Position numbers and translations under genes: made by a program | From: a virus | IMG/VR virus record: IMGVR_UViG_3300030380_001638 | Location: 1 to 32,711 of that record | Direction: 5' to 3' (one strand) | Length of the DNA: 32,711 bases | Notes under the pieces: model-generated | Databases searched by the model: none | What the model was told of the DNA's origin: nothing | Seen by the model: only the letters and a program-made list of their open reading frames with translations | Shown here: positions 892 through 32,685 of the stretch, piece after piece | Layout of the letters: every line of letters starts with the position of its first letter | How positions within the stretch are numbered: the stretch's first letter is position 1

Positions 892-979
892 ATAGAATAC
901 TCGCCCAGCACTACGCCTTCTTAGCACGAGAGGACTTAATGTATAACGTGACATAAGTAGTAAGATACTTTAGGGTTTA

Positions 980-997
980 TCTGATGTGGCGATCAGA
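980..997 (+). promoter_or_regulatory. Six-base-pair hairpin upstream of a small gene
   Basis: TCTGAT at 980-985 and ATCAGA at 992-997 are perfect complements around a 6-base loop (GTGGCG). It lies in the largest gene-free gap (892-1019) of the + strand block, 22 bases before the chosen start at 1020. It could be an operator, an mRNA structure or a promoter element. A 6-bp palindrome can arise by chance in 32 kb, so the only support is its position. Confidence 0.3.
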
Positions 998-1019
998 CGA
1001 GTTTACAATGGAGAATGTT

Positions 1020-4966: not shown

Positions 4967-5099
4967 ATTAATTAATCATATCAATCACTTAAAGATAGAA
5001 GTTGATGTACTCAAAGCACGTAAGGCAGACTTAAAAATTATTGAGATGTTAGAGTCTAGGCTTAAAGAGTATAAAGAAGAACTTAAAGGCGCGGGATAA
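4938..5099 (+). CDS. Small coiled-coil protein, 53 aa
   Basis: The start at ATG 4938 follows GAAAGGA (4922-4928). It overlaps the end of the pyrophosphatase gene by 29 bases. The product is one long amphipathic helix with regular Leu/Ile spacing and alternating Lys/Glu, consistent with a coiled-coil. No family is recognised. Its stop codon sits in the loop of a G+C-rich hairpin just before the DNA polymerase gene. Confidence 0.65.
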   Translation: MTNQTMSRSKLINHINHLKIEVDVLKARKADLKIIEMLESRLKEYKEELKGAG

Positions 5100-5107
5100 A
5101 CCCGCGC
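5089..5107 (+). promoter_or_regulatory. G+C-rich hairpin upstream of the DNA polymerase gene
   Basis: GCGCGGG (5089-5095) and CCCGCGC (5101-5107) form a perfect 7-bp all-G/C stem with a 5-base ATAAA loop. It stands out in an A+T-rich genome and spans the stop codon of the preceding gene, 28 bases before the polymerase start. No T-run follows, so it may be a processing site, a weak or factor-assisted terminator, or a promoter-associated hairpin. Confidence 0.6.
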
Positions 5108-5135
5108 TACTAAAAGTATATTAGAAAGGAAAAAT

Positions 5136-6977
5136 ATGCAGTTAGTATTTGACATAGAAACCGACGGGTTTTTAGAAGATATGACGAAGTGCCATGTACT
5201 TGTCTGTCAAGACGTTGTAACTAAAAAGATTTATACGTTTACCGACATTCAAAATGGACTAGACTTCATGAAAAATGCTGATGCGTTAATCGGTCATAAC
5301 ATTATTGGTTTTGATTTGATGGCATTGGAAAAACTTTATGGATGGAAACCGTCTTCTAAAACTGCTTTGATCGATACATGGGTCATGAGCCAGACATTGC
5401 AGTTTAACCGACAACATAAGCATGGCTTAGCAGGCTGGGGTAGCTATCTTGGCTTTAATAAAATGGATAACAGTGAATGGGCTGCTGACGGATTTAAGAC
5501 ATACGATCCGCGAATGATCGACTACTGTATTCAAGACGTAAAACTAAATACTAAAGTTTACGAAGTATTACTGGCCGAGTTAGAAAAAGCTATACAAATC
5601 AATGACTTAATCAAGAAAGGTTTGAGAGTCGAGCATGATGTAGCTGAGTTCGAAGCTATAGTACGTAAGACTGGCTGGCTGTTTGACTTAAATAAAGCTC
5701 AGGAAAACTTACGACTTATGACAAGACACATGAATAAGATTGAGTCTATCATTGAGCCTAAGCTAGGTACAACTAAAGTATTTATAGATAAAGCACCTAA
5801 GACTGCTAAGTATACTAAGAAAGGATTGTATACAGCTACTACAGCTAGGATACTGTCTGAGTATTTAGGCAACAATGTAATAGGCGAAGATGCTTTATCA
5901 GATAATCCTCCAATACAACCTGGTCAGGAGTTTCAAAGAAGCAAAATAGAAAAAGTAACACTGAGTAACATGGAACTAGTTAAAGAGTGGTTACTATCTA
6001 TTGGCTGGAAACCAGATGATTGGAATGTAAAGCGTGGACATACAGGTAACTGGATACGTACAGGACCTAAACTTACATCAACGTCACTAGCAAAACTAGG
6101 TAGGCAAGGTAAGCTAATTGATAGGTACTACACTATTAAGAACCGTAAAGCTACTATCGAATCATGGCTAGAAAGGATTCAGAAAGATGGCACAGGAAAC
6201 TATCGTCTTCATGGTAGGATGTTTACTATTGGTACTCCTAGCTTTAGATGCCGTCACGAAGTTATCGTTAACTTACCAGCAGTGGATGCAGAGTATGGTA
6301 GAATGCTTAGGGAACTATTCATTGCTGAACCAGGTTATAAAGTTGTTGGTGCGGATTCCGCTGGGAATCAGCTGCGTGGCTTATGCCATTACGTGGGAGA
6401 TAAATCCTACACAGACTTGGTGGTTAATGGGGATCAACATACACGCAATGCTGATGTTCTTGGTTGCAGTAGGAGCGTGGCTAAGTCTTTTCTCTACGCT
6501 ATTCTATTTGGTGCAGGCGATGCAAAGCTTGGTCAAACTCTTACGGGGGTAAGTAGTGCGCCTAAAGGTAAAGAAGCCAGACAAAAGTTTATGAATAACT
6601 TACCTGGGTTTGAGCAGCTAGTTAATAAACTACGTGGTGTATTTAATCAGTATGGTTGTATACCAGGACTAGATGGTCGTAAGATCTTTGCTAGATCTGA
6701 TTACCAAGTACTTAATTATTTATTACAAACTACCGAAGGTATTACTTGTAAAGCAGCTTTAAGTTATGCTATGAATAAAATTAAAGAGGAAAAGCTTGAT
6801 GCTTATCCTGCTATATTCTATCATGACGAGCAAGCATGGATTGCAAGTGATAAAGATTCTAAACGTGTAGGTGAAATACTACAAGAGTCTTTTCGTGAAG
6901 CACCTAAATGGTTTGGTGTTGAATGCATGGATGGTGGTGACTATGTAATAGGCAACTCATATGCGGAGGTACACTGA
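5136..6977 (+). CDS. Family A (T7-type) DNA polymerase with proofreading exonuclease, 613 aa
   Basis: This is the replicative polymerase. The N-terminal 3'-5' exonuclease keeps its acidic residues: Asp6-x-Glu8, Gly-His-Asn-x-x-Gly-Phe-Asp, and Tyr-Cys-Ile-Gln-Asp. Polymerase motif A is GADSAGNQLRGL with Asp407. The O-helix has Arg-Ser-Val-Ala-Lys-Ser-Phe-Leu-Tyr, placing Tyr at the position of T7 Tyr526. Motif C is FYHDEQAW. Two differences stand out. The near-universal motif A Glu (T7 Glu480) is Gln412, and the next O-helix aromatic is Phe rather than Tyr (Leu-Phe-Gly-Ala-Gly-Asp). Its length is somewhat below T7 gp5 (704 aa). An AAAGGA site precedes the ATG, and its TGA overlaps the next gene's ATG. 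Confidence 0.95.
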   Translation: MQLVFDIETDGFLEDMTKCHVLVCQDVVTKKIYTFTDIQNGLDFMKNADALIGHNIIGFDLMALEKLYGWKPSSKTALIDTWVMSQTLQFNRQHKHGLAGWGSYLGFNKMDNSEWAADGFKTYDPRMIDYCIQDVKLNTKVYEVLLAELEKAIQINDLIKKGLRVEHDVAEFEAIVRKTGWLFDLNKAQENLRLMTRHMNKIESIIEPKLGTTKVFIDKAPKTAKYTKKGLYTATTARILSEYLGNNVIGEDALSDNPPIQPGQEFQRSKIEKVTLSNMELVKEWLLSIGWKPDDWNVKRGHTGNWIRTGPKLTSTSLAKLGRQGKLIDRYYTIKNRKATIESWLERIQKDGTGNYRLHGRMFTIGTPSFRCRHEVIVNLPAVDAEYGRMLRELFIAEPGYKVVGADSAGNQLRGLCHYVGDKSYTDLVVNGDQHTRNADVLGCSRSVAKSFLYAILFGAGDAKLGQTLTGVSSAPKGKEARQKFMNNLPGFEQLVNKLRGVFNQYGCIPGLDGRKIFARSDYQVLNYLLQTTEGITCKAALSYAMNKIKEEKLDAYPAIFYHDEQAWIASDKDSKRVGEILQESFREAPKWFGVECMDGGDYVIGNSYAEVH

Positions 6978-10600: not shown

Positions 10601-11040
10601 GAGAGAATACTAATGAAGTTATTAGGTATCCTGAGGATATGTATTGTGTTTATTTTCATCAAGACCCAGACACTGATGAAGTAATTTATGTAGGTAAAGG
10701 TACGTTACATCGAGCTTATCAGATTACAAACCGTAGTTATGATCACCATGTATGGTTACTAGATAAGCTTGATAACTACAAGATACAAGATATTGTTAAG
10801 ATAAAAGGCGGTCAAATGACCGACAAAGAAGCTACTATTGTAGAAGCTCATGAAATAAAATGTTGCCTAAGAAAGGGATCTGACTTACTCAATGTAGCTC
10901 AGAATCCTTTTCGCAAAACAAGGAGAATGAATGCAGAATATAATAGATTATCTGGAGCAGAAGATACTAAGCACGCCACAAAGGTGGGCAGTGAAGCTAG
11001 TACTCGAACACGAGTTACAGCCGAAGCAACTAGTATATGA
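10582..11040 (+). CDS. GIY-YIG family nuclease-like protein, 152 aa
   Basis: Residues 21-110 fit a GIY-YIG domain. Val-Tyr-Phe (23-25) and Tyr-Val-Gly-Lys-Gly (36-40) match the two namesake strands, with Arg44 as the catalytic Arg, Glu83 or Glu88 as the metal ligand helix, and Asn104. Such nucleases include homing endonucleases and phage enzymes that attack host DNA. GGAGG sits seven bases before the ATG. The last 110 bases overlap the RNA polymerase gene in a different frame, so the C-terminal about 36 residues may be dispensable. No second DNA-binding domain is visible. Confidence 0.7.
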   Translation: MRNIEIRENTNEVIRYPEDMYCVYFHQDPDTDEVIYVGKGTLHRAYQITNRSYDHHVWLLDKLDNYKIQDIVKIKGGQMTDKEATIVEAHEIKCCLRKGSDLLNVAQNPFRKTRRMNAEYNRLSGAEDTKHATKVGSEASTRTRVTAEATSI

Positions 11041-13476: not shown

Positions 13477-16400
13477 TTACATATCTATTTGCAATATGCG
13501 GGAGCCCTTAGCGGCTTCCGTAAGTTGTTTTTTAGCTTTACCGACCTCGTCAATTGTTTGACGGTTGCGTGCTGCAAGGTTTAATCCTTTTGGTCCTATA
13601 ATATTATCAAAGAACTTTAGCATTTGTGTCCCTGTAAGCTGATCTATCTTTCCTCCTTTAAACTGGGATTGATTAGGTAGTAACGCATCAGCTGCAGCTT
13701 CAGCTCGCTTTCGTTTTTGTGCTTCATATACCATAACAGGAGTTCCTTTCTTTCTAGCAGGGTGCTCCATTGTATCATATAAAGTATTAACTAAGTTATC
13801 TTTATCAAAAAGGTTTGTGCTTGTATCATGAAGTAAAAAGTAAAAACCTCTATACTCATTATCCATATTAATATCAATCTTAGTATCCCCGATATTTTTG
13901 AGCTTGGTTCTAAACCTTTCTGTAGCTCCGGGTGTCCAGTCTCCCATAATACTGTTGACATAAGAATACTCATTGATAACATCCCACCAATTTTTATTAG
14001 AAATATTACGCACTTTTGCAGCGCCATCCAAATCAGTTTTGATAGCATCCATAATAGGTAGCATGTAGTTACGTTGCAACTGTCTAAATGAGTTACCAGT
14101 AAATGTTCTGTTCATCCAGGCACCATCGATACCTTGAATAACAGCGGGTATAATTCTACCTCTACCCCAACCACCGGGCTTACCTTCTCTTATAGCACTA
14201 CCAGAAGGAGCTGACTCATATAAAGGTACAGCACCTACTTGTTGTACAGGAGATCCTTCAGGTAAACGAACTCTTATATCTCCTTTAGTTTCTTTTAGTA
14301 CAGAGCTTTTAGCGCCAATATAGTTATCAACACCAATAGCATTTTTAACTTTCATAACTTCATCAGATAACATAGCAACAACGTTGTTTGCTCTAAGTAA
14401 CTGACCAACTTGTACTACACCTGGATCTAACTCAGCATCAATAGAGTCTGCTAGTATATCATGTAAGAAACCAGCAACTACATCTTCTCTAGTTGGAGGT
14501 CTTTTAGCATTCATCTCCTTAATTTTCTTGTCTATTACAGGTCCTATTTCAGGACTGTTAATAACTCTTCTTATTGCAACAGACTGAGGGCCAGTAAAGA
14601 TAGTTTCATATACAGCTCCTCTTAAATTTTTAAGTAGCTGACCGTAAGCTAGCGTCATAGGAGGCTTTTTAAGAAAGTTATCTCTATCTTTTATAGCTAA
14701 CTTAAGTATTTCATACATTCGAGGTGATAACTTATTATCAGGTACAAAGTTATGAGCATGCTTTTGCCCGTTCTCAAGCATAAAGTAAGACATGCCATCT
14801 CGTATATCACCAGCAGCTAACTCTTCGTCTGTTTGTACTCCTTGATATAAGTCTTTTACAGGTATATCGTCTAAGTTTTTAGTAGCACCTAGCTTTCTAA
14901 GTACACCAGCTCTGTATGCAGCTTTCATAGAACCTAGTTGCATTAAGTTACTAGCAGGACCATGAGTTTTACCATCTAATTCTACAGATATGTTACTTTT
15001 AAATGTTGTATTATTTTTCTGTGCCTTATCAAACTGATATAGTTCATGAGCAGCTTCTATTAAATTTAAACCTTCTAACTCTTCACCAATGGCTTTACTT
15101 TTTAACCCATCAGAAAGCTTTAGCCTAGGCATTGTAGCCAAAGAAGGCGGTACTGCAATACCGTTAGGTCCTAAACCTATCTTCTTTACATCTTCTAAAT
15201 ACTTTTGATCTTGTTCAGGAGTTAACAAAGTATCTGCTATAGACTTACCGTCCTGAATATAGCTCGCAAAGATACCATGGTTAGGACTATTCCATTCAGT
15301 ATCAAATGCAGCAACTCTGTTTTCAGGTAAAAGCTTGTCAGCACCTGTAATAAAGTGCTTTGCCATTACTTCTTTAAACATTAATGTTGTATCGTTGTTA
15401 ACATTAGGATTTACGGTAGGAACTCGTATACCACCAGTTACAAATCTAATCCATGGAACAAGTTGAGGATTAAATCTAGTTTGTGTAGCATGCATACGGC
15501 TTTGTAGTTCTTGTACAGCAAAGTCTAAATGGTTAGCCTGATTACTGTATCTAGCAATAGTGTTTAAACTTTCTATAAACCTAGTAACTTGTTTATCCAT
15601 TTCAAAATCAGGTCTATAATCAGTATTAATATCATCTTGCCGCTTTTTAGCTAGCTCACCTCTAAATGCTATCATTTTAGCAGGTCCTATTTTAAGCAAA
15701 TCACCTAGTTCAGGTGGTCTAGTTCTATCTTTAAGCCCTGCAAGTACTTCCATTGCTACTTGAAAATATATCTTTCTTCTTAGAGGATCTACACCATGAG
15801 CAATGCTGTTCATGTTTTCTCTAGCTTCTTCTATTTCAGCTATTTTTCTATCTACTACGGCAGTAGTTTTTTCTTTTCGTAGTTTTCTACTTTCACCTTC
15901 TCCAGCTTCAGTAAGTTTTAGCTTACCTCTAGGCGCTGTAGCAGGTTTTATTTCGTAGTTACCAAATACTTCTGGAGAAGAATCTTCTGCAGCTTGAATC
16001 GCAGCAGCTCCTGTAGGTGTAAGTTCGTACTCTACGGTTCTATTAAAACTGTCAGATACTCTAGTGTATAGTTCAGGATTAGCAGCGTGGTACATTTCTT
16101 TTGCTAGTGTACCTATTGTTTCAAACTGATCACCAGCAACACCTTGCTCTGTGTATTCATCACTAGGTCTTCTTTGCATAGCGTTTTGTTCGCGCTTCCA
16201 AGCTCTAAATATCTCTCTACCTAGCTGCTGATTACCTACACCACGTCTTAGTTTACCTTCTTCTGTTAAAGGTAGTTGTTCTTGCTCTGCTAAAGCTCTT
16301 TCAGAAAAGTCATCTATATTATCTGTTGCTTCAGGTTTAGCATTATACTGATTTTTATGTATAAACTTTTCAGTAACTATACCCATAGTTCTAGCAAACA

Positions 16401-17016
16401 TAGGATCTACTTGTACTACGTCATCACCTCTCATTTTACCAGCATCAAAACCTTTGGGATCAAACAATATACCTTTAGTAGATAACGGGTTTAATCCAGC
16501 ATCTTCTACATTCAACCCCATTGCAACAGGAAGTGCTTGTCCGGCTGGCATATAAGCAAGATCAACTGTAGCACCTGACTCTAATTTATTTTGAAATAAC
16601 TGTGTAAATCTGTCAGATCTTTTTATAGCTTCACCAAACCCATCGTTTGTATAGTCATCAAAGTCTTTTACGTCAGGACGCATTTCGCTTAGTGGTTTAG
16701 CTCTTTCAGCTTCTCTTTGCTGTACAGCAGTCTCAGCAAACCTTGCAGCATCTTGCTGTGCTATTTGCTGTGCAAACTGTTGTCTTGCTTCTGTCTGATC
16801 TACTCTACCTTTTTGCTCTTCAGGTAAAACAAACGGAGCTGGTATAGGACGTATAGGTTGTGGCTGTGGTTGTGCAGCCAAAGAAGCAGGACCTTCTTCC
16901 ATTAGTTTCTGTAAAGCAGTTTTAGGTCTAAACTGTTCAGTTAAAGCGGCGGAAGCAGCTTCACGCTCCTTAGTCATCTCTATTGTGTTTGTTTGTGGAT
17001 TTATTCTTATTGCCAT
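13477..17016 (-). CDS. Probable virion single-subunit RNA polymerase (N4 mini-vRNAP-like), 1179 aa
   Basis: Four motifs of T7/N4-type RNA polymerases occur in order. A TxxxR element (VTGGIRVP, Arg531) corresponds to T7 Arg425 and the N4 TxxGR motif. Motif A is VELDGKTHGP with Asp681 and the D-G-x3-G spacing of T7. Motif B is LKKPPMTLAYG with Lys783 and Tyr791, nearly identical to T7 (Lys631/Tyr639). A motif C candidate is MLPIMDAIKTD with Asp990. The spacings (150, 110 and 199 residues) resemble N4 vRNAP. The length is close to the about 1,100-residue active core of N4 vRNAP. It is last in the virion operon, where T7 encodes an ejected core protein, so packaging and injection are likely. The N-terminal about 350 residues include a Gln/Pro-rich part and are otherwise unassigned. 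The start at ATG 17016 follows GGAG; an upstream TTG is unlikely. Confidence 0.8.
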   Translation of the reverse strand: MAIRINPQTNTIEMTKEREAASAALTEQFRPKTALQKLMEEGPASLAAQPQPQPIRPIPAPFVLPEEQKGRVDQTEARQQFAQQIAQQDAARFAETAVQQREAERAKPLSEMRPDVKDFDDYTNDGFGEAIKRSDRFTQLFQNKLESGATVDLAYMPAGQALPVAMGLNVEDAGLNPLSTKGILFDPKGFDAGKMRGDDVVQVDPMFARTMGIVTEKFIHKNQYNAKPEATDNIDDFSERALAEQEQLPLTEEGKLRRGVGNQQLGREIFRAWKREQNAMQRRPSDEYTEQGVAGDQFETIGTLAKEMYHAANPELYTRVSDSFNRTVEYELTPTGAAAIQAAEDSSPEVFGNYEIKPATAPRGKLKLTEAGEGESRKLRKEKTTAVVDRKIAEIEEARENMNSIAHGVDPLRRKIYFQVAMEVLAGLKDRTRPPELGDLLKIGPAKMIAFRGELAKKRQDDINTDYRPDFEMDKQVTRFIESLNTIARYSNQANHLDFAVQELQSRMHATQTRFNPQLVPWIRFVTGGIRVPTVNPNVNNDTTLMFKEVMAKHFITGADKLLPENRVAAFDTEWNSPNHGIFASYIQDGKSIADTLLTPEQDQKYLEDVKKIGLGPNGIAVPPSLATMPRLKLSDGLKSKAIGEELEGLNLIEAAHELYQFDKAQKNNTTFKSNISVELDGKTHGPASNLMQLGSMKAAYRAGVLRKLGATKNLDDIPVKDLYQGVQTDEELAAGDIRDGMSYFMLENGQKHAHNFVPDNKLSPRMYEILKLAIKDRDNFLKKPPMTLAYGQLLKNLRGAVYETIFTGPQSVAIRRVINSPEIGPVIDKKIKEMNAKRPPTREDVVAGFLHDILADSIDAELDPGVVQVGQLLRANNVVAMLSDEVMKVKNAIGVDNYIGAKSSVLKETKGDIRVRLPEGSPVQQVGAVPLYESAPSGSAIREGKPGGWGRGRIIPAVIQGIDGAWMNRTFTGNSFRQLQRNYMLPIMDAIKTDLDGAAKVRNISNKNWWDVINEYSYVNSIMGDWTPGATERFRTKLKNIGDTKIDINMDNEYRGFYFLLHDTSTNLFDKDNLVNTLYDTMEHPARKKGTPVMVYEAQKRKRAEAAADALLPNQSQFKGGKIDQLTGTQMLKFFDNIIGPKGLNLAARNRQTIDEVGKAKKQLTEAAKGSRILQIDM
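13499..13533 (+). terminator. Intrinsic terminator for + strand transcripts, inside the opposite gene
   Basis: CGGGAGCC (13499-13506) pairs with GGCTTCCG (13513-13520) over 8 bp with one G-U pair and a 6-base loop, followed by TAAGTTGTTTTTT. This is the classic stem plus T-run for transcripts coming from the RNA polymerase and the 59-aa gene. On the other strand the same bases encode the last residues of the 1179-aa protein. No matching terminator for the - strand was found beyond 13,477. Confidence 0.75.
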
Positions 17017-17017
17017 A

Positions 17018-20000
17018 TTATTCTCCAAAACCCCATCTATAAGCTTGTTTGTCTATTTGTTGATACGCAACCTGCGCTATTGGCGTAATCTTTACTATAG
17101 TTTCTGGCGGCTTTTCCCCTGTAGCAACGTCAAGAGCTATATCTCCTATTCTTAGTGCTTTACTTACACCAGCTGATTCACTAGCTATAGTACCAAAGAA
17201 CCATTCTACGTTTGACTGGTATCTTTTTTCGTACATAGGAAATACGAAGTCTATAACTCTTTCACCTGTACCTAATAAACCACTAGCACCTACACCTCTT
17301 CTAAGATACTCAGTACCTTTAAAGTAAGGTGTAGTTTCGCCGTACTTTAGTAGATCTTTTAAATGCTGCGATACAAATCCTAATAGAATCATTGTAGCAA
17401 CTGTAGCAAATAAATTGTATTTCATTGCAGGTGTACCACGTTTAGCCATTTCACCATACATTTTAGGTATATGGTTAGCTGTAAACGTAGCTATGAAACC
17501 TTGAAACTGCGTGAACAAAGCAAATCTAGGATCTTGAAATATTAGTGGTCTATTTGCAGACTGTGGTAAAGCAACAGCATCATTTATAAAATTAAACGTA
17601 GCGTCGTTTATATCTCTTTCCCATCTAGCTTTTAGTTCAGGATCAGGTTGTACAGTTTGGTTATCATTTACAAATTGCTGATGGTATTCTTTTAAAAACT
17701 CTGTGTCTAAACCTAGATTTCTTAAACCTTCTTCAGCTTCTCGAGACTCGTTAGTTGTAACATCTGAATTACTAGCAGCTACCATTATAGATACTTTATC
17801 AGTAATATAATCTAAAGCTATAGAAGCTCTTGCAGCACGTGCAGCATTAGTCCATTGTTGTAGTAGTATAACTTTAAAATACATATCAAGTATTCTTTGG
17901 TGCCATCTACCGGTTTCACTAACACCAGTAGTATGAGCAGCACCAACTTCCCAATCAAAGAACCCTAGCTTTTTAGCTACCGCATGACCACCTTCTCCTC
18001 TCATATGAGGTCTTGGCTGGTTAGATAGTGCACCATATGATCTGTTTGCAGTATTTTTTATTTCATCTACAAAAGATCTAGCAATAGAATTTATACTACC
18101 TTTTTCTCCAAAGATTTGTTTTACTGTTAGCCCCTTACTTGTTAGACCTAGCTCAACAAAGTTTGACACAGTAGCTAGTGGTAAGCCGGTTATTGTAGTA
18201 ACAAACAAAATATTCTTTTGTGCAAACCTAAGTATAGGTGGAATGTTTCGCTTGTAGTTACCTGACTCCGCATCAAAATAATTTTTAAGATCAAACGCAA
18301 GTTTATCAACTCGTTTTTGTGCTTGTGTTGCTGTATATCTACCTGATTGTATTAACTCTTCTTGTATCTTGTTTAAGTTGTAATTAAGTTTAGAGTTATT
18401 ACTACCTACGTATTCTTCTAATACTGTATATCTTACAGCAGACTTGGCAGCATTAGAGATGTTAGTAAATATATCTCTTTCCATAAACTCTTGAAACTCA
18501 GCACGATCAGAAAGATTTAAAGTTCTACCTCTATGTGATTGTGGTTTAAATGTAGATCTGTCAGTAACAGAAAAGCCACCATCAATAGCTTGCTCAAAGT
18601 TAGAAGGTATATCAGCACCATCTATTTGTAATATAGCATCAGTAAGTCTAGTTGCTGTTTGAGGATCTATTACTTGTTCACCTTCAGCATTTTCTATTTG
18701 TGTTAATGCTAACTCAAAACCAGATCTATTTCTTTCTATAGCTAGCTTATCTAACGATTTGTATCTTGATAAGTAATCTTGTACATAACCTAACTCAGAG
18801 TTATGATCACGCTGCATAGCATGAAGTTCATTACCTGTTTCTACAAGCTTGTTATGAAAGTTTCTAAATGCATTAGCAAAAGGTCTTAACTCAGGATCTA
18901 AATCTGTATCCCAGTTTATTTCTCTATTAGCTCTTCCAGCTCTTTCTCTAGCTTTAGTGAATGCATCATAATATTGCTCACTAAATTCTAATCTAGATTT
19001 ACGTTTATCAGTTCTACCAAAAGCAGCTAGCAATTCTGTAACGTCGCCTAACTTATATCTTATTTCAGATATTAAGTTATGCTTTCTGTTTTCATACGCT
19101 TGACCTGATGTAGATCGTTGTAAGTTAGATCCTACAGATTCACCTAATATTCTAGCAGTTACAGAATCGTTTTGTATACCACCCATGTTATCGAAGTAAA
19201 ATCTTGTTTGACCTCTCCATAAACTAGGTATACCCCTCCACCAGTCTTTTAATAAAGCAGGAACAGCACGTTGCTCTTTAGCTTCTATATGTCTTTCTGC
19301 TCTATCATTTAAATCTTCACCAGTAAGTTGTCTTAACCTAGCTTCTGAAGCTTGTCGTTGTCTATTAGTTAATCTACCTGCGAGTCTAGCTCTTAAATTA
19401 TCGACCTCTCTAGCAACATTATCAGTAACAGATTTAGTACGTAAGTTTTCTTGTTGTATATTATACTGTTGACCGTTTTGTGCTATGTCTTGTTGTGCTT
19501 TTCTACCCATATCAGATGTCTGTTTACCTGTATCTGGGCCAGTTCTATAAGCTACGTCTACCCATGCACCATAATCATATACACCACCTGGTATAGATAT
19601 AGCACCACCAAGAGATGTACCCGCAATAGTAGCATCTATAAGTCTATCTTTAAACTCATTAGCATCCCAATCTCTAAAACCGTTAGCAGTATGTGCTGCA
19701 GTATAACCAATAGCTTCTTGTAAAGCTTCTGTTACGCCTTCACCAGCTGCTGCAGTACCTATTCTTCTAAGTTGGTTTCTAGCTACGTTTCTAGCAGTAA
19801 TTTGTTGCTTAGCAAATTGAGCAGCATCAGTAGCTAGTTTAGCAGTTTCTTGCCTACTAGCTTGTAACAACGCTCTTTTAGCTGCATCTTCACTCATACC
19901 TTGTCTTCGAAGAGCTGCTATTGCTGTGTTCCTACCTTCTTTAGTTAACAAAGCTTGTGGGTTTAAAAACTTAAGACCTAATCGGTCTAGCACTGACTGT

Positions 20001-21058
20001 GATACGCCACCGGCTACAGCTAAATAAGCATTCTTATTATCACCTTCTTGATCATTCCATATAGTACCTGTGTATAAAGCTACAGGAGATAATACAGCAC
20101 CCGCAGCTGCAACGCCTACTGCACTAGCAGCTACATAAGGAGCAGCAACAGCGCCAGCTATTGTAGCAGCCATGTAAGGTAATGATATAGCACCGTTGTT
20201 AGCAATGTATTGTAAAAATCCTTCTTTACCAAAGAAGCCATCGATGTCTTTATAACTAGTTACAATTTCAGGTTCTTTAGATAACTTTTCTCTAGCTCTA
20301 TATATGCCAGCTTCACCTACGTTTTTAGCCCAGTCCCAACCAGAAGTTTCTCCTATAAGTTCTACAGCACCATACAATCCTTCGATAGCACCTGTAAGAC
20401 CTACATCCCAAGCTGTAGAAAAAGGACTTGTAGCTTTATTTTGAAAGTCTCTTGACCTATCTCTAAACATTACGTTATTAGAAGCATAAAGCCCACCGCT
20501 GTAAGCTAGCTGAGTTTCGTCAATAGCTTTTTGCCTAAATTGTGTTTCATACTGCGTTTCGTCATATATAGCTTGTGCAACAACGTTCTTAGCAACATCG
20601 TAGTTTTCTCCTAAACCATCTGTTCCTAAAGCTTTAGCAGCAGCATAGGCTCTTGTTCCTGCTTTAGACGTATATCTATTAGGTTCTAATACACCTGTTT
20701 GCATCAAGGTTTGTTCCCAGCTTCTACCCTGATCGTCTTGTAAGTCTATTAGCTCACGACCGTTAGGATCAAATTTACCTGTACGTATTACGTTAGTAAA
20801 CCCTTCTCTTTTAGCTAATGTTTGTAGAGCTTCGTTGGCTTTACTAGAACCTGCAGTTCCTATTCTATAATTATCAGGACCAAATATTTTAGTAGTTTCA
20901 GGAGCATCAATACCTTTCATTCTAAACTTAAGTGGATTACCGTTATCATCTACCTCAGTTTTAGAAGCCAGAGTATCACCATCTACAAAAGCATAGTCAT
21001 CGTTAAGATCTTTGCTCAGTAGTCTGTTTGATATTCTGTCAATGGTCTCTTGCTTCAT
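17018..21058 (-). CDS. Giant ejection/internal virion protein with N-terminal staphylococcal-nuclease domain, 1346 aa
   Basis: Residues about 20-150 form a thermonuclease (SNase) domain with every catalytic residue present. Asp26-Gly-Asp28-Thr, Arg46, Asp51, Glu54 and Arg101 match SNase Asp21, Arg35, Asp40, Glu43 and Arg87 with near-identical spacing. An Ala/Val/Gly-rich hydrophobic stretch around 290-330 and a second near the C-terminus could enter membranes. The long middle is helical and charged. Size, position between the transglycosylase protein and the virion RNA polymerase, and membrane-active segments fit a T7 gp15/gp16-type DNA-ejection protein. The nuclease would then enter the cell with the DNA; this is inference. 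Its ATG overlaps the previous stop (TAATG). Confidence 0.82.
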   Translation of the reverse strand: MKQETIDRISNRLLSKDLNDDYAFVDGDTLASKTEVDDNGNPLKFRMKGIDAPETTKIFGPDNYRIGTAGSSKANEALQTLAKREGFTNVIRTGKFDPNGRELIDLQDDQGRSWEQTLMQTGVLEPNRYTSKAGTRAYAAAKALGTDGLGENYDVAKNVVAQAIYDETQYETQFRQKAIDETQLAYSGGLYASNNVMFRDRSRDFQNKATSPFSTAWDVGLTGAIEGLYGAVELIGETSGWDWAKNVGEAGIYRAREKLSKEPEIVTSYKDIDGFFGKEGFLQYIANNGAISLPYMAATIAGAVAAPYVAASAVGVAAAGAVLSPVALYTGTIWNDQEGDNKNAYLAVAGGVSQSVLDRLGLKFLNPQALLTKEGRNTAIAALRRQGMSEDAAKRALLQASRQETAKLATDAAQFAKQQITARNVARNQLRRIGTAAAGEGVTEALQEAIGYTAAHTANGFRDWDANEFKDRLIDATIAGTSLGGAISIPGGVYDYGAWVDVAYRTGPDTGKQTSDMGRKAQQDIAQNGQQYNIQQENLRTKSVTDNVAREVDNLRARLAGRLTNRQRQASEARLRQLTGEDLNDRAERHIEAKEQRAVPALLKDWWRGIPSLWRGQTRFYFDNMGGIQNDSVTARILGESVGSNLQRSTSGQAYENRKHNLISEIRYKLGDVTELLAAFGRTDKRKSRLEFSEQYYDAFTKARERAGRANREINWDTDLDPELRPFANAFRNFHNKLVETGNELHAMQRDHNSELGYVQDYLSRYKSLDKLAIERNRSGFELALTQIENAEGEQVIDPQTATRLTDAILQIDGADIPSNFEQAIDGGFSVTDRSTFKPQSHRGRTLNLSDRAEFQEFMERDIFTNISNAAKSAVRYTVLEEYVGSNNSKLNYNLNKIQEELIQSGRYTATQAQKRVDKLAFDLKNYFDAESGNYKRNIPPILRFAQKNILFVTTITGLPLATVSNFVELGLTSKGLTVKQIFGEKGSINSIARSFVDEIKNTANRSYGALSNQPRPHMRGEGGHAVAKKLGFFDWEVGAAHTTGVSETGRWHQRILDMYFKVILLQQWTNAARAARASIALDYITDKVSIMVAASNSDVTTNESREAEEGLRNLGLDTEFLKEYHQQFVNDNQTVQPDPELKARWERDINDATFNFINDAVALPQSANRPLIFQDPRFALFTQFQGFIATFTANHIPKMYGEMAKRGTPAMKYNLFATVATMILLGFVSQHLKDLLKYGETTPYFKGTEYLRRGVGASGLLGTGERVIDFVFPMYEKRYQSNVEWFFGTIASESAGVSKALRIGDIALDVATGEKPPETIVKITPIAQVAYQQIDKQAYRWGFGE

Positions 21059-23901
21059 TATTCACCAACCTGTAATTGTGATTTTGCCCACTCAAAGAAG
21101 CCTGTTGAGTCTGCCTTATTAGCTTTTCGTTCCCATTGCTCTTTAACGTCATTCTCTAAAGCTGCCCAGTCTTCTGTAATAGCTCTAAACCACTCGATAG
21201 CTATAGCGTTATCATCAGTAACGTTTTGAAAAGCAGGGTTTTGTGATTTCATAAAGTTTACAGCGTTTTGTCGTAATCTTTCAAAGTCTCTAGAGTTTAC
21301 AACTTTACCATAACCACGCTTCTTTTCTTCTTGACTCTTTGGTTCTGTTCTAAGTAATGATAAGAAGTCTAAACCTTTAACGCTTTGTCTTATTTTAAGG
21401 CCATTTAAGTAAGGAACTAAACTAGTAGGTTTATATTCTTTAGTTTTAGCATCTTCAACAAGATCATTATAAGCAAGATTAATTAAACTAGGCATATCTC
21501 CTAAGTCAACTTTATTTTCTAGTGCCCACTTAGCTACACGAGCAGCATCGCCATCGACTCCCATACCATCATAGTAAATATTTTTACCATCTTTTTTGCC
21601 AGCAATATTGTTACCCTGGTTGTCTCTTATATTCTTAGCAAAAAGCTCTTGGTATTTAACCATTGCTTGATTATACTCATCTGTTTTAGGTACGTATGTA
21701 GGGTTTTCAGTAAAGTTAAACAAGTTTATTTTAGTACCATTTCTATCGTAGTAAACTGTTTCAGCGTTTGCCCCAGTTCCTACTTTAAATTCTTGACCTA
21801 CAACCGTTACTCTTTGACCTTGCTTATTTAAACCATAAAACTTTTTAGTTTTTCCTTGAGAAACTAGTTGCGTAGGTAAGTATTCTAAGTCGTCGTAGTT
21901 ACCAGTCTGTATAAACTTAGCTAATGATGTAGGAGTAAACTTCTTTGCAGCCGCAGCAGATGTAGCGTACTTTCTACCGGCAGCTTCTTTAGCATCTATT
22001 CTTTCCATGTACTGTTTAAGAGCAAAGTTTAAACTACCACCATGGTTATAACCTAGTAATCTAGAACCAAGGTACATTATAGCCATACGCTTAAGTTCTT
22101 TTGAATCAAACACGTTACCTAATAATCCTTTTAAGAATCCTTCAGCTTTTTTCTGTTCTGCTGGAGGAGCTTTCTTACCAGTGTCTTTAACAGTCTCTGT
22201 GTTATTATTAGCTCCTGGTTGATCTGGCCCTGGTCCTGCATCATTATTAGTAGTATTAAGAATAGCTTTTGCTACTTCATCTTTTCTGTCATAGCCCTCT
22301 TCAATAGGCTCTAACTTTGTCATCTTTTCTTGATCGGCTTTACGAGCTAAACCTTCCTCTCCTCTCTTTTGTAGGAAATCAGCTCTTTGCTTTTCATTCA
22401 TTCCGTATTCTTTAAACATTCTAGTTAAAGACTTTGGAGGCTCATTGATGGCAATCATATCAGCTGTTTCTTTTTTCTTAGCTCTTACAGCTTCGTTTTC
22501 TGCTTGTAACCTATCTCTAAAACCTTCTAGTCTTTCTAATAATGTAGGCTTTTTAGGTACTATATCTTTACGCTGATCACCAGGTCTCATAGCAGCATCA
22601 GGATACATTGTAGCATCTATTCTACCAGCGCCCGGTCTCATGATAGCATCATCTTCATACACATCAGCAACCTTAGGTATAATAGCTTGTTGGTCTGTCT
22701 TAAACATAGCTGAGTCTGCACCCATACCACCAAAGTCTTGGTCTTGTAGTGCATCTAAATATTCTGGTGTTAAGACTTGACCGTTTCTAACAGGGTACGG
22801 ATTAATTTCTGTTGCTTGATTTGATAGTGCATCAGGTAAATTTGTTACTGGTTGAATAACATTTTGAAACCCAGCAGGTCTCGGTACTACATTTTTACCT
22901 CTAACTTGATTTAAGTACTGCGCAACGTTACCAGAAGTCGGACCTGGAATAGGCTCCATAGAGGCCATGTTTGTTCTAGGTATACTAATATTCACAGGAG
23001 GTACTAATGATGTATCAGTGACAACCTCTGCGCCACTAGGAACATCCTGTGGCTTAATTTGAGCAACATCAACACCAGGTATTTTATCTGTTGTCTTTTT
23101 AGCTTTAGAGTCGTAATAGTCTGATATACTAGCAAAAGTCATCTTACCATCTTTACCTGCCCAAACAGGGTTTAATTCATAGTTCGAACTACCTGGTCTA
23201 AAAACTTCTTGATTTAAATCTCCTTTGTTATCACCACTTCTAAACTTTTCAAAGTATGCACCAGGAGCTGCTTGCATAATTCCTAAATGTGCTTCTCCAC
23301 CATACTTCCATCTGTCTAAATACGTTTCATACAATTTTAATTGATCAGCAGGACTCATACTTGCAACATCAGATGTAGTAAAATCTTTATCTATCTTACC
23401 TTGATCTTTTAAATCGTTTATAGCAGTATCGGTAAACTGAAATAAACCAGTAGCACTACTATTAGGGTTCTTAGCTGTAGGATCAAAGCTACTTTCTCCA
23501 GCTATCATGTTATATAGCTTGTCTTTACTAAACTCTGATCCCTCGTACTTATCTAGCATCTGGTTAAGTTGTACTTGAAAGTCTTCATCTTCATCTAATG
23601 AACTACGAGAGAATACTTTTGTGCCCTCTTGTGCATACATAGCTTTATTTTGATTTTGCTTTTGTCGACCTACATCATTCATCTTTTTTATTGTAGGTCC
23701 AAACATTTCTGTAGCTTCTTTGTTTACTACAAATTCACCGGGAGTAAGCCAAGCTGGCACAGTGTCTGTACCTTTAGGATCGCCTGGATGGTCATACATA
23801 GGTATAGACTGCATAGCAGGTACGTTAGCTTGCGGTATATCAAATTCAAAAGACATCATATTCCCATGTCGGTCTTTTCTTGTAAACTTCTTAAGCTGCA
23901 T
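21058..23901 (-). CDS. Internal virion protein with lytic transglycosylase domain, 947 aa
   Basis: Residues about 128-215 carry a soluble-lytic-transglycosylase domain. Catalytic Glu136 lies in MIAGESSFDP, followed by NSSATGLFQF (about 147-156) and a Leu-Gly-Ile-Met-Gln segment. It should open peptidoglycan during DNA entry, as T7 gp16 does. Near the N-terminus is TVPAWLTPGEFVVNKEA (47-63), a motif often seen in tape-measure and other tail-interior proteins. The remainder is long, polar and helical, with Lys/Glu-rich segments at 460-620 and no clear membrane span. Overlapping TAATG junctions on both sides show tight coupling within the virion operon. Confidence 0.82.
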   Translation of the reverse strand: MQLKKFTRKDRHGNMMSFEFDIPQANVPAMQSIPMYDHPGDPKGTDTVPAWLTPGEFVVNKEATEMFGPTIKKMNDVGRQKQNQNKAMYAQEGTKVFSRSSLDEDEDFQVQLNQMLDKYEGSEFSKDKLYNMIAGESSFDPTAKNPNSSATGLFQFTDTAINDLKDQGKIDKDFTTSDVASMSPADQLKLYETYLDRWKYGGEAHLGIMQAAPGAYFEKFRSGDNKGDLNQEVFRPGSSNYELNPVWAGKDGKMTFASISDYYDSKAKKTTDKIPGVDVAQIKPQDVPSGAEVVTDTSLVPPVNISIPRTNMASMEPIPGPTSGNVAQYLNQVRGKNVVPRPAGFQNVIQPVTNLPDALSNQATEINPYPVRNGQVLTPEYLDALQDQDFGGMGADSAMFKTDQQAIIPKVADVYEDDAIMRPGAGRIDATMYPDAAMRPGDQRKDIVPKKPTLLERLEGFRDRLQAENEAVRAKKKETADMIAINEPPKSLTRMFKEYGMNEKQRADFLQKRGEEGLARKADQEKMTKLEPIEEGYDRKDEVAKAILNTTNNDAGPGPDQPGANNNTETVKDTGKKAPPAEQKKAEGFLKGLLGNVFDSKELKRMAIMYLGSRLLGYNHGGSLNFALKQYMERIDAKEAAGRKYATSAAAAKKFTPTSLAKFIQTGNYDDLEYLPTQLVSQGKTKKFYGLNKQGQRVTVVGQEFKVGTGANAETVYYDRNGTKINLFNFTENPTYVPKTDEYNQAMVKYQELFAKNIRDNQGNNIAGKKDGKNIYYDGMGVDGDAARVAKWALENKVDLGDMPSLINLAYNDLVEDAKTKEYKPTSLVPYLNGLKIRQSVKGLDFLSLLRTEPKSQEEKKRGYGKVVNSRDFERLRQNAVNFMKSQNPAFQNVTDDNAIAIEWFRAITEDWAALENDVKEQWERKANKADSTGFFEWAKSQLQVGE

Positions 23902-24632
23902 TATTGTTTTCCTCCACCTGAAAAAGCTCCACCTTCATCAAATACACTTTGTGTAGGTTGACTGTAGTCAGGTATATCATTCATAGCTTGCGTACCAGGA
24001 TCCAATGGAGCTCCTGTAAAATTTCCTGAGCTGTCAAATCCTGTATAGGCTTCATTATAATTATCAAACATATCCACACCTTCACCCATAGGAACTTCAA
24101 ATGCTAGCTTTTGTGTATTTAATCTGTTTAACTCTATATCTCTTAGCTGATCACCAGTTGTTACACCTGGCTTTATACCTAACATAAGCTTTTCTTGTGT
24201 ATCAGAATAACCGGGAGCTATTTTACTTAGTGGGTATGTATAATCTCCGGCACCTTCAAATTTATTTGTGCTTGGATTATATACAAAACCTTCAGTATCA
24301 TTTAAATAATTTTGTATATCTTGCTCCGTTAAAACTTTACCTTTAGTAAAATAATCGGGTTCAGATAACATGGGAGGTCCTTCGCTACGGTCCATTATAG
24401 AACTACCATACATAGCAGGATCTATTACTGGTACATCGTAGCTTTGATTAAAAGCAGCAGAATCAAAAACGTTGTTGCTTGGCGCACTTCCACCTCCCGT
24501 TAAGTCATTTGCAAAACCTGGTATAGAGTTTAATGCTCCTAATGGAACAATTGGCACATTAAAGTAATCGCTATCAAAGTCTATACCACTACTAGATCCT
24601 CCTGATGAGGAGCCACTTCTAAAGCCTACCAT
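23901..24632 (-). CDS. Putative virion protein, 243 aa
   Basis: No family is recognised. The N-terminus is Gly/Ser-rich (RSGSSSGGSSSG) and the C-terminus ends in a Gly-rich tail. In between the protein is rich in Asp, Asn, Pro, Tyr and Phe with few long helices, suggesting an extended structural protein. It starts one base after the stop of the 228-aa gene and shares a TAATG junction with the 947-aa gene. Position implies a tail or internal head protein. Confidence 0.72.
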   Translation of the reverse strand: MVGFRSGSSSGGSSSGIDFDSDYFNVPIVPLGALNSIPGFANDLTGGGSAPSNNVFDSAAFNQSYDVPVIDPAMYGSSIMDRSEGPPMLSEPDYFTKGKVLTEQDIQNYLNDTEGFVYNPSTNKFEGAGDYTYPLSKIAPGYSDTQEKLMLGIKPGVTTGDQLRDIELNRLNTQKLAFEVPMGEGVDMFDNYNEAYTGFDSSGNFTGAPLDPGTQAMNDIPDYSQPTQSVFDEGGAFSGGGKQ

Positions 24633-24633
24633 A

Positions 24634-25320
24634 TCAACGTCCTCTAAAATTATTAAACATATTCTTTATGCCAGTCATCATGTTTCTACTAGGATCTTTA
24701 GATATTTCGTACTCTAAAGTTAAGCTTCCACTACCTTTACCTGCGTCAGGCTTAACACTATATCCTGCTCCTAAAGGTAGCTTACCTGATTTCATTAATG
24801 ATTTAAAATAGTCTTCAGAATCTATACCCATAGGTGTCATACCTTTACCACTAAACATCATGCTTTCAGCAGACATAGGAGGACCAGATACTCTGCCACC
24901 CATATCATATTTTTTAGCAAGATCAGGACTTATTTTTTGTTGCACAGCTTCAGGTAACTTAGCAAATCCTTTAAACTTACTAGGTACTTTACCACCAGTT
25001 TCCATGCCTAACGGTCCTATATAACCACCTCTTGCAAAGAATAAGCTTTTTAAGAATGGTGCAAGTAACTCACCACCTATCTCTCCTGCCATAGCGCCTA
25101 GTGGTCCACCCATAGCACCACCTGCAGCAGCAAGAGCTTTCTTTGCTCCTTCTTTTCCTACTTGTCCTAACGCATAATCTATAGCTTTAGTTTCTGCAAG
25201 ATCAACAGCCATGCCTAAAGGTGAAGGTCCCTGTTTTTGTATTTGTGGTACTTGAGGATCTCTTCTTCTTTGCATAGGAGCCATACCCATGCCCATCATT
25301 GGTTGTGCAAGACTTATCAT
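24634..25320 (-). CDS. Putative virion protein with glycine-zipper segment, 228 aa
   Basis: A Met/Gln/Pro-rich start is followed by a Gly/Ala-rich stretch at about 65-90 (AAAGGAMGGPLGAMAGEIGG), a glycine-zipper pattern that can insert in membranes. Three short Gly-Gly elements recur after it (Arg-Gly-Gly-Tyr-Ile, Thr-Gly-Gly-Lys-Val, Met-Gly-Gly-Arg-Val). Such small proteins between nozzle and core genes can be ejection proteins comparable in place to T7 gp14, though no similarity is claimed. GGGAGG precedes the ATG, which overlaps the previous stop as ATGA. Confidence 0.75.
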   Translation of the reverse strand: MISLAQPMMGMGMAPMQRRRDPQVPQIQKQGPSPLGMAVDLAETKAIDYALGQVGKEGAKKALAAAGGAMGGPLGAMAGEIGGELLAPFLKSLFFARGGYIGPLGMETGGKVPSKFKGFAKLPEAVQQKISPDLAKKYDMGGRVSGPPMSAESMMFSGKGMTPMGIDSEDYFKSLMKSGKLPLGAGYSVKPDAGKGSGSLTLEYEISKDPSRNMMTGIKNMFNNFRGR

Positions 25321-25874
25321 TTGCCACCTCCCGTTTGAGTAGTAGTAGTTGTCTGAGGCACGGCCTGTGATCCTAAATAGCCAAAGTATCTAGTAGCCAT
25401 AGTATCATCAGCATCTAATAACTGTTGTTTATAAGCTTGCTGTACGCTACCTACATCTCCTAACAAGTCTGACCCACCCAAGGCGGTTTGCTGTCTGTCT
25501 TTTGCAAACTCTAAAGATCTATCAGCTAATGCTTGATTCATAGCAGCCTGAGATCTAGCAGAACCTAGCATACCACCAGTAGCTGCTTGTCCCATAGCAC
25601 CACCTAGTATACCTTTTAAGTCTGATTCTCTAGCCGCAGCAGTATCAAACAAACCAGTTCCTTGCATCATGTCTTGAGCATAGCCTTTTTGTGCAGTTAG
25701 CGCGTCTTTTTGCTCTTGAGTAAGACCTGCTACAACTGAACCAGGACCTGCTGTTCTATCAGCTTCATACATATCAGTAACGTCTGATAAAACTCTTTCC
25801 ACGTAGGGAGCAAACTGACCAGCTATTCCTGAGTTTACTACCTGTTCAGTAGTGCCTCCGCCTCCACTTCCCAT
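25317..25874 (-). CDS. Putative virion structural protein, 185 aa
   Basis: It opens with MGSGGGGTTEQ and ends with a Thr/Gly-rich tail (TTTTTQTGGGK), both likely flexible. The middle is Ala/Gly/Gln-rich and helical, including TGGMLGSARSQAAMNQAL near residues 99-116. I know this general pattern from small tail or core proteins of marine podoviruses, but give no specific name. AGGAG six bases before the ATG and an ATGA overlap with the next gene place it firmly in the virion operon. Confidence 0.75.
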   Translation of the reverse strand: MGSGGGGTTEQVVNSGIAGQFAPYVERVLSDVTDMYEADRTAGPGSVVAGLTQEQKDALTAQKGYAQDMMQGTGLFDTAAARESDLKGILGGAMGQAATGGMLGSARSQAAMNQALADRSLEFAKDRQQTALGGSDLLGDVGSVQQAYKQQLLDADDTMATRYFGYLGSQAVPQTTTTTQTGGGK

Positions 25875-32514: not shown

Positions 32515-32551
32515 TCTCCTAATAGTATATATATTGATCTCTAATAGGAGA
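32515..32551 (-). promoter_or_regulatory. Inverted repeat covering the nrdJ ribosome site
   Basis: TCTCCTAATAG (32515-32525) and CTAATAGGAGA (32541-32551) can pair over 10 of 11 positions around a 15-base A+T-rich spacer. On the - strand mRNA the downstream arm contains the AGGAG used by nrdJ, so folding would hide it. The element fills the gap between the 43-aa gene and nrdJ. It could tune reductase translation or mark a processing site; the spacer is long, so stability is modest. Confidence 0.45.
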
Positions 32552-32553
32552 CA

Positions 32554-32685
32554 CTATGTTTTCTTTTTACTGCGTTGTGCTGTCGCCATAGCTTTAGCTG
32601 TAGGAGCACCTTTTGCACCTTTCTTACGCATCTTTTCACCACGCTTTTTCTTAGCGTGAATGTTAGCCCACAATCCTTTTTTCAT
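32554..32685 (-). CDS. Small strongly basic protein, 43 aa
   Basis: ATG 32685 to TAG 32554. The product is dominated by Lys, Arg, Ala and Gly: an MKKGLWANIHAKKKRG start, then Lys-Gly-Ala-Lys-Gly-Ala-Pro-Thr-Ala-Lys-Ala and a Lys-rich end. I recall very similar short Lys-rich proteins next to structural genes in marine podoviruses, but no function is known to me. Binding to packaged DNA or RNA is plausible. It has an AAGGGA site upstream. Confidence 0.75.
   Translation of the reverse strand: MKKGLWANIHAKKKRGEKMRKKGAKGAPTAKAMATAQRSKKKT

Follow-up and report, generated by a model that had tools for sequence, protein, structure and literature searches.

In the main survey of these enzymes, the virion RNA polymerase (vRNAP) of N4 was found only in N4-like phages or prophages, and a fused HExxH (zincin-like) domain was almost always present in N4-type vRNAPs (PMC5512222). 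The N4 protein, gp50, has approximately 3,500 aa with large N- and C-terminal domains, the latter being autoinhibitory (PMC12633501), and its promoters combine a conserved loop with a free stem (PMC4496689). The virion RNAPs of phiKZ and P23-45 are also packaged phage enzymes for the earliest genes, but their kinship is with multi-subunit cellular RNAPs rather than with T7 or N4 (PMC4666361, PMC10770324). Outside Schitoviridae, the RNAP of vB_PunP_Y3 (Poorviridae) has been published as vRNAP-like on a PSI-BLAST claim (PMC11654794), and a large protein of StenR_269 as vRNAP-like by a guess from composition (PMC10747016). An initial sequence-only reading of this locus, in which a natural mini-vRNAP outside N4-like phages seemed undescribed, was slightly too strong, given the vB_PunP_Y3 claim.

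The window, that is the whole stretch of DNA analyzed, comprises 32,711 nt of the virus record IMGVR_UViG_3300030380_001638 (Table 1). Our data support the presence of a natural mini-vRNAP in a marine phage group outside the N4 family, as a compact version of the giant N4 enzyme, and early-gene hairpins, in which the loop is conserved and changes in the stem compensate each other, are newly found in genomes carrying its relatives.

Table 1. Features of the window, with predicted functions (positions in nt from the first letter of the window)
Feature	Position	Strand	Evidence and remarks
Candidate vRNAP promoter, early hairpin GGCGCGGG[ATAAA]CCCGCGCT	5088..5108	+	28 nt before DNA polymerase ATG; eight other genomes have a hairpin at this position
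DNA polymerase gene, following the hairpin	5136..6977	+	phrog_17 E 1.4e-92
T7-like single-subunit RNAP, 787 aa	10931..13294	+	PF00940 E 4.8e-54, phrog_414 E 9e-102; convergent with vRNAP gene
Predicted vRNAP (single-subunit RNA polymerase of virion type), compact, Cys-free, 1179 aa	13477..17016	-	Motifs, profile, fold; ATG at 17016, stop at 13477
Motif C YMLPIMDAIKTD (D990)	14032..14067	-	D990 in strand-turn-strand of predicted model
Box before motif C, VIQGIDGAWM (D964)	14113..14142	-	Aligned with T7 FVHSQDGSHL; invariant columns
Motif B DNFLKKPPMTLAYG (K783, Y791)	14641..14682	-	Aligned to N4 RGIAKNPLTITIYG and T7 RSVTKRSVMTLAYG
Motif A SVELDGKTHGPAS (D681)	14950..14988	-	PHROG_2206 match E 1.7e-4; N4 counterpart VEADGVTNGP; invariant
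Catalytic-Arg motif SRMHATQTRFNPQ (R507)	15463..15501	-	Alignments to N4 and T7 (T7 to N4); equals N4 R424 / T7 R425
Probable ejection protein of the virion, large (1346 aa), Cys-free	17018..21058	-	phrog_6958 virion structural protein E 2e-27
Probable ejection protein, 947 aa, Cys-free, carrying an SLT transglycosylase domain	21058..23901	-	PF01464 E 2.5e-5
Three small Cys-free genes (243, 228, 185 aa), same block	23901..25874	-	Zero Cys
Candidate promoter of T7-like RNAP, GTGTCTCCTATTAGAGA	32538..32554	-	22 nt before ribonucleotide reductase ORF; heads operon ending in vRNAP gene

Catalytic residues, homology and fold of the polymerase

The hallmark residues of single-subunit RNAPs (Arg, motif A Asp, motif B Lys/Tyr, and motif C Asp) are collinear and conserved in the vRNAP. 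R507 in SRMHATQTRFNPQ aligns with GRMQMLGKYNPQ of N4 and GRVYAVSMFNPQ of T7, motif B (NFLKKPPMTLAYG) carries K783 and Y791, and D990 lies in the motif C stretch LPIMDAIKTD. R507, D681, K783, Y791, and D990 are invariant in an alignment of nine relatives, down to approximately 41% identity, and K783, Y791, and D990 are kept in 18 out of 18 family members. Motifs A, B, and C of the sequence-only reading, with Asp681, Lys783, Tyr791, and Asp990, are thereby borne out, decoys giving no score. Its TxxxR, placed 150 residues before motif A, corresponds to T527–R531 (TGGIR), where R531 is not conserved; with the aligned catalytic R507 this spacing becomes 174, while those of 110 (motif A to Tyr) and 199 (Tyr to motif C) hold, compared to 135, 119, and 273 in N4. 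A TTG at 17028, considered as an alternative start, is a scan artefact, and the ATG at 17016 aligns with the start Met of most relatives.

Profiles were needed, since searching PDB, Pfam, and cultured phages with the vRNAP as a single sequence yielded no match. Early, shallow profile comparisons were weak, and a strong signal was observed only with 18 family members and a 12-member Schitoviridae alignment: the 18-relative profile matches the Schitoviridae vRNAP core with hhalign E 5.5e-10 over 471 columns, as strongly as T7 matches N4 (1.4e-8), and none of the shuffled and reversed decoys score. Conversely, the Schitoviridae profile matches 15 of the 18 family members at E ≤ 0.005 (best decoy 1.2), and PHROG_2206, “virion RNA polymerase,” matches eight of them (best 4e-11). 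T7-type RNAPs belong to the same superfamily and share motifs R, A, B, and C, but the profile match is weaker (E 0.0056), and the phage has a separate true T7-like RNAP. No relatives of the vRNAP were found in a scan of bacterial and archaeal genomes.

The AF2 model (pLDDT 77.7, pTM 0.69) has the palm/fingers/thumb fold, judging by Foldseek comparison with PDB, where all 50 matches listed are mitochondrial, N4 or T7 RNAPs (probability 1.00, E approximately 1e-12 to 1e-10, reaching 8.6e-13 for yeast mtRNAP, with 1.2e-11 for the N4 RNAP domain 9pnq); matches in BFVD are mostly vRNAPs and phage RNAPs. Among the best fold matches are 3c46 and 2po4, that is N4 mini-vRNAP, an engineered core (residues 998–2103) of similar size and fold, whereas the vRNAP of the window is naturally encoded and has an N-terminal part of its own. 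Global TM-scores are modest (0.40–0.51, rmsd 10–15 Å), so the domain arrangement is uncertain. The empty single-sequence searches could be taken as a sign of a chance or misread motif in an unrelated structural protein, but profile, fold, and family searches all indicate RNA polymerases, the fold search already refutes this explanation, and we give it practically no credence. Sequence and model together support assignment of the gene to single-subunit RNA polymerases of the N4 virion type, and the conserved residues suggest a catalytically active enzyme.

Size, composition and genomic position

Full-length relatives have 1163–1599 aa, some being of 1,450–1,600 aa and one carrying a NADAR domain; the giant size of approximately 3,500 aa is not observed. 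The vRNAP has no giant N- and C-terminal domains, and no HExxH was found in the 18 family members, compared to 11 out of 11 longer Schitoviridae frames. Cysteine is absent from the vRNAP in 17 of the 18 relatives and, likewise, from sampled Schitoviridae vRNAP fragments, whereas the T7-like RNAP of these phages has 10–13 cysteines (12 in the window). Among relatives, divergence is faster in the vRNAP than in the T7-like RNAP, the latter retaining 75–99% identity.

The vRNAP gene is the last in the virion operon, as first proposed, following the ejection proteins and convergent with early genes. The accompanying suggestion that it occupies the slot of a T7-type ejected core protein holds in part, as the slot equally resembles that of N4 gp50, also the last virion-operon gene facing early genes. 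The vRNAP and its five neighboring virion genes encode no cysteine at all, and the 243-, 228-, and 185-aa proteins have no family match. Operon position and the Cys-free block are indirect hints that the vRNAP may be packaged in, and ejected from, the virion. The same block, and the faster divergence relative to a T7-like RNAP that alone could serve transcription, would also suit a vRNAP-derived ejection (core) protein that lost polymerase activity and became structural in the DNA-ejectosome. However, a structural relic would not need the five residues invariant in nine relatives, and the early hairpins are maintained through compensatory change; we consider such a loss of activity improbable.

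The phage was initially described as a T7-like podovirus, which agrees with its T7-like RNAP but not with its head genes, which are closest to those of roseophage CRP-7, the nearest isolate, and not to Autographiviridae or Schitoviridae. In the relative g1, identity to CRP-7 is 51% for MCP, 53% for portal, and 40% for scaffold, a gp34 homologue is present (E 4e-31), and the head module and gene order of the CRP-7-type group are shared. The capsid module differs from that of N4: TerL, portal, and MCP of g1 have no blastp match to the N4 counterparts. CRP-7 gp33 (1235 aa, “hypothetical protein”) occupies the same slot, convergent to a T7-like RNAP, has no Cys, and contains motif-like EADARQSNAG, KDYARGLVVAGLYG, and VIQGGDSTIM...AIHDALITG, so that motifs, slot, and composition hint at a vRNAP. 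With hhalign it aligns with N4 at motif C (P 0.0018); it has no significant alignment to the vRNAP family of the window (E 0.15), and the model of the gp33 family (pLDDT 37.6) is too poor to judge the fold. The hairpin family described below was not found in CRP-7.

Early hairpins and the second polymerase

In relatives, four to eight hairpins precede early genes; the loop is conserved, the stem shows compensatory changes, and by inspection a hairpin precedes the DNA polymerase gene in all nine genomes. In six genomes, 31 hairpins are on the early strand and one on the other (control mean 0.02–0.06), and stem covariation is 1.077 vs. 0.278 in shuffled data (0/500). Since the left end of the window falls downstream of the hairpin cluster, a single hairpin is present in it. 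Loops of 4–6 nt differ between genomes, and their pairing with vRNAPs is not one to one: ACAAG and ATAAA loops occur together in g1, and ATAAA is common to G3 and G11, whose vRNAPs are only 49% identical. N4 similarly has variable-stem hairpins before early genes, but with 3-nt loops and three hairpins, compared to up to eight per genome here. A dyad-operator reading was ruled out, as the stem varies while the non-palindromic loop is conserved. Scanning viral contigs for the promoter pattern ATAAA-N9-CTAATAATAT proved too permissive and was discarded, as it yielded at least 120 stretches, most of which probably match by chance in AT-rich DNA.

The 17-nt motif GTGTCTCCTATTAGAGA, which looks like a promoter and may be used as such by the T7-like RNAP, has exact or near copies in nine genomes and is near-constant between them, whereas hairpin loops differ. 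This makes it a better candidate promoter for the T7-like RNAP than the hairpins; moreover, the T7-like RNAPs of G8 and g1 are each at least 98% identical to that of the window, yet the loops are different. Use of the hairpins by the T7-like RNAP is one variant of an explanation we regard as unlikely, the other being that they function as RNA (as terminators or as sites for an RNase or a regulator), with host RNA polymerase starting early transcription and the packaged enzyme having another role. Indeed, a sequence hairpin may work at either the DNA or the RNA level, and T-runs follow some hairpins in g6 and G11, which could be terminators. On the other hand, an Rfam search with the hairpins gave no match, only one of eight G3 hairpins has a terminator-like score, sigma-70-like sites show no excess (28 vs. 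30.2; 16 vs. 12.9), and a conserved loop with a free stem matches the published N4 vRNAP promoter logic (PMC4496689). The early hairpins are candidate vRNAP promoters, and the combination of vRNAP and hairpins suggests a phage that brings in its own polymerase at the onset of infection.

Proposed cascade and its implications

The explanation that, as a whole, we consider quite probable is a natural mini-vRNAP, packaged, ejected, and reading hairpin promoters in a two-polymerase cascade. Its computed base consists of the polymerase fold, the invariance of the catalytic residues, the N4 vRNAP homology, the lack of cysteine, and the covariation of early-strand hairpins. An N4-type single-subunit RNA polymerase, trimmed to roughly catalytic-core size, would be produced late under a T7-like promoter preceding its operon, packaged together with other Cys-free virion proteins, and at infection ejected ahead of or with the DNA. 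It would then transcribe early genes from small hairpins extruded in DNA, with a conserved loop and an interchangeable stem. One early product would be the 787-aa T7-like RNAP. From a duplex promoter of another kind (STGTCYCCTATTAGAGA), this RNAP would in turn express the late and virion genes, among them that for the vRNAP of the next generation. The core-sized virion-type polymerase outside N4-like phages, as originally proposed, is thus supported by fold, N4 vRNAP profile homology, lack of cysteine, and early hairpins. With less confidence, we lean slightly toward a reading in which natural mini-vRNAPs outside Schitoviridae form a lineage, every enzyme having a hairpin loop of its own, and in which polymerase and hairpins co-diversified while the T7-like RNAP and its 17-nt promoter stayed fixed.

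A family of approximately 1,180-aa proteins seemingly doing the job of N4 vRNAP separates what ejection and early transcription need (the core, no cysteine) from N4-specific parts, which on such comparison are the N-terminal domain, the HExxH region, and the autoinhibitory C-terminal domain. The hairpins provide many natural promoter variants for probing loop recognition, and with CRP-7, the nearest cultured relative, part of the question can be tested immediately; the CRP-7-type group is reported to be widespread in the ocean (PMC6918029). If co-diversification is true, these phages would offer a library, made by nature, of hairpin-specific RNA polymerases that are compact and orthogonal, and a simpler transcription cascade than that of N4, with two polymerases in place of three.

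Single-subunit polymerase motifs and fold

The gene order of the window, an IMG/VR virus record, places the gene of the compact virion-type RNA polymerase (vRNAP) at the end of the virion operon, as the sequence-only reading had held, with a gene of a T7-like RNAP (PF00940, E 4.8e-54 in Pfam) facing it. The vRNAP belongs to the single-subunit RNAP superfamily and shares homology with the N4 core. It matches the PHROG "virion RNA polymerase" at motif A (E 1.7e-4); this PHROG matches 8 of the 18 family members (best 4e-11), and two members also match the T7 RNAP PHROG, spanning motifs A–B. Profile searches support the assignment made from sequence alone: comparison of the 18 members with the Schitoviridae vRNAP core (an alignment of 12 members) yields probability 96.6 and E 5.5e-10 over 471 columns, while in the same setting the known true pair, T7–N4, has E 1.4e-8, and comparing the window family with T7 RNAPs gives E 0.0056. 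By hmmsearch, the Schitoviridae profile retrieves 15 of 18 members with E between 1e-9 and 5e-3, and no shuffled decoy scores better than E 1.2.

Structure prediction likewise recovers the RNAP fold. Foldseek matches of the AF2 model (pLDDT 77.7, pTM 0.69) include yeast mitochondrial RNAP (E 8.6e-13), the RNAP domain of N4 vRNAP (1.2e-11), and T7 RNAP (4e-11); no other fold appears among the 50 matches listed. As TM-scores are ~0.3–0.5 and rmsd is large, the match concerns the fold, exact domain placement excepted. In the model, D990 lies within a strand-turn-strand and Y791 at the start of a helix, which would fit motif C and the O helix.

The predicted conservation of D681 (motif A), K783 and Y791 (motif B), and D990 (motif C) holds in all nine members aligned, and for the last three residues, in 18 of 18 sequences of a larger alignment, fragments included. 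The catalytic arginine, on the other hand, had been misplaced in TGGIR (T527–R531): the aligned residue is R507 in SRMHATQTRFNPQ, invariant in the same nine members. This motif aligns with N4 GRMQMLGKYNPQ, and the latter in turn with T7 GRVYAVSMFNPQ.

Features of the window and its relatives
Feature	Genome	Coordinates	Strand	Details
vRNAP gene	window	17016 (ATG) to 13477 (stop)	minus	1179 aa
T7-like RNAP gene	window	10931–13294	plus	787 aa
STGTCYCCTATTAGAGA, candidate T7-like RNAP promoter	window	32538–32554	minus	heads the operon ending in the vRNAP gene
Virion protein gene	window	17018–21058		1346 aa
Early stem-loop	window	~979–1001		
Early stem-loop	G3	11723		
Early stem-loop	G8	4724		
vRNAP with NADAR domain	L013	5415–10211		
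gp33	CRP-7 (L036)	17859–21566		1235 aa, annotated as hypothetical

Relatives and known virion polymerases

Four scans of IMG/VR yielded about 20 loci related to the vRNAP, with identity down to ~38% in the best segment; no tblastn match was found in cultured phages, and no relative in bacterial and archaeal genomes. The relatives named here are g1 (L002/L003), G3 (L009), g5 (L025), g6 (L015), G7 (L010), G8 (L028), G9 (L031), G10 (L029), and G11 (L011). Several relatives are long contigs, and two of them with end repeats, g1 (55.9 kb) and g5 (58.1 kb), are likely complete genomes. The convergent T7-like RNAP gene adjoins the vRNAP gene in every relative checked whose record extends that far. 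Conservation of these neighbors differs unusually, being 75–99% for the T7-like RNAP and dropping to ~40% for the vRNAP. In one relative, L013, the vRNAP polypeptide has a NADAR domain near the C-terminus (residues ~1401–1510; PF08719 E 7.7e-4, under the curated cut-off; phrog_1017 E 7e-10), possibly an injected enzyme reversing ADP-ribosylation-based defense.

The vRNAP is distinct from the giant Schitoviridae-type vRNAP, lacking both the giant N- and C-terminal parts (for N4 domain roles, see PMC12633501, PMC5512222) and the HExxH motif present in 11 of 11 longer Schitoviridae vRNAP frames. Capsid, portal, and terminase, tested in g1, are not N4-like. By sequence similarity (MCP 51%, portal 53%, also measured in g1), the phage belongs with roseophage CRP-7. 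In that cultured phage, gp33 lacks cysteine, is encoded at the equivalent position, and contains strings resembling motifs A, B, and C, among them AIHDALITG. It may represent a highly diverged vRNAP; no hairpin family was found in CRP-7.

The novelty suggested by the sequence-only reading stands in part. In the literature searched, we found no report of a core-sized vRNAP outside Schitoviridae or of its promoters, but a vRNAP-like gene outside this family has been claimed once, for vB_PunP_Y3 (PMC11654794), and one was guessed for StenR_269 (PMC10747016).

Cysteine-free block

Of 18 relatives, 17 have a vRNAP free of cysteine, and the vRNAP of the remaining one has a single cysteine; the T7-like RNAPs of the same genomes have 10–13. 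Products of the five genes upstream of the vRNAP gene in the window operon (1346, 947, 243, 228, and 185 aa) also lack cysteine, and genes beyond them encode it. Sampled Schitoviridae vRNAP fragments are cysteine-free, and for the LUZ7 vRNAP this was proposed as a requirement for crossing the tail and periplasm (PMC3715699). A lytic transglycosylase domain, a feature that an ejection protein should have, is present in the 947-aa protein. The vRNAP itself would be packaged and ejected. The 1346-aa protein shows some resemblance, at E only 0.56, to a staphylococcal-nuclease-like domain in its N-terminal part.

Early hairpins and the second signal

Among the relatives, six with records spanning the early region carry perfect hairpins on the early strand, 4–8 per genome (31 on this strand vs. 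1 on the other); Markov controls give 0.02–0.06 per genome, understating the search made, since the choice of loops was itself based on inspection of these genomes. Independent support comes from unsupervised grouping, which recovered the hairpin families (none in most shuffles), and from stem covariation. The loop is conserved inside each genome (ACAAG in g1, ATAAA in G3 and G11, TATWCA in G8, TATYCA in g6, GARAAC in g5), and the stem varies by compensation. In the AYAAR-class alignment of 18 sequences, 97.9% of cells are paired vs. 57.7 in shuffled ones, partly by construction since sequences were selected for stems, but the variety of pairs is not: 8 of 8 pairs change on both sides, and covariation is 1.08 vs. 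0.28, attained by no shuffle. Slid registers reach at most 57% pairing. By inspection, a hairpin immediately precedes the DNA polymerase gene in nine of nine genomes examined, including the window, and in G3, CTAATAATAT follows most hairpins with a constant spacing to the loop. No Rfam family matches the hairpins, and no excess of sigma-70-like sites was found. An early stem-loop, TCTGAT[GTGGCG]ATCAGACGAGTTTA, is also conserved; its one compensatory substitution turns GAT/ATC into GGT/ACC, and it has no Rfam match.

The second signal, 17-nt STGTCYCCTATTAGAGA, is nearly constant across nine genomes (the window and eight others), and resembles a T7-type duplex promoter. It is located before late operons and ribonucleotide reductase, and once in the early region, where a G-run often comes next. 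In both g1 and G8, the T7-like RNAP shares at least 98% identity with that of the window, yet the hairpin loops of the two genomes differ; identity between their vRNAPs is 45%. The simplest reading assigns the hairpins to the vRNAP and STGTCYCCTATTAGAGA to the T7-like RNAP. Loop-to-vRNAP pairing is not one to one: two types of loop occur in g1, and a single type is common to G3 and G11.

The hairpins share the logic of N4 vRNAP promoters, where a hairpin is needed, certain bases are fixed, and other stem positions are free (PMC4496689), and we infer both activity and promoter use of the vRNAP. Fold, motifs, homology, the Cys-free block, and covarying hairpins all support the initial proposal of a natural mini-vRNAP outside Schitoviridae, one that would follow N4-type logic and is predicted to work like N4 vRNAP.
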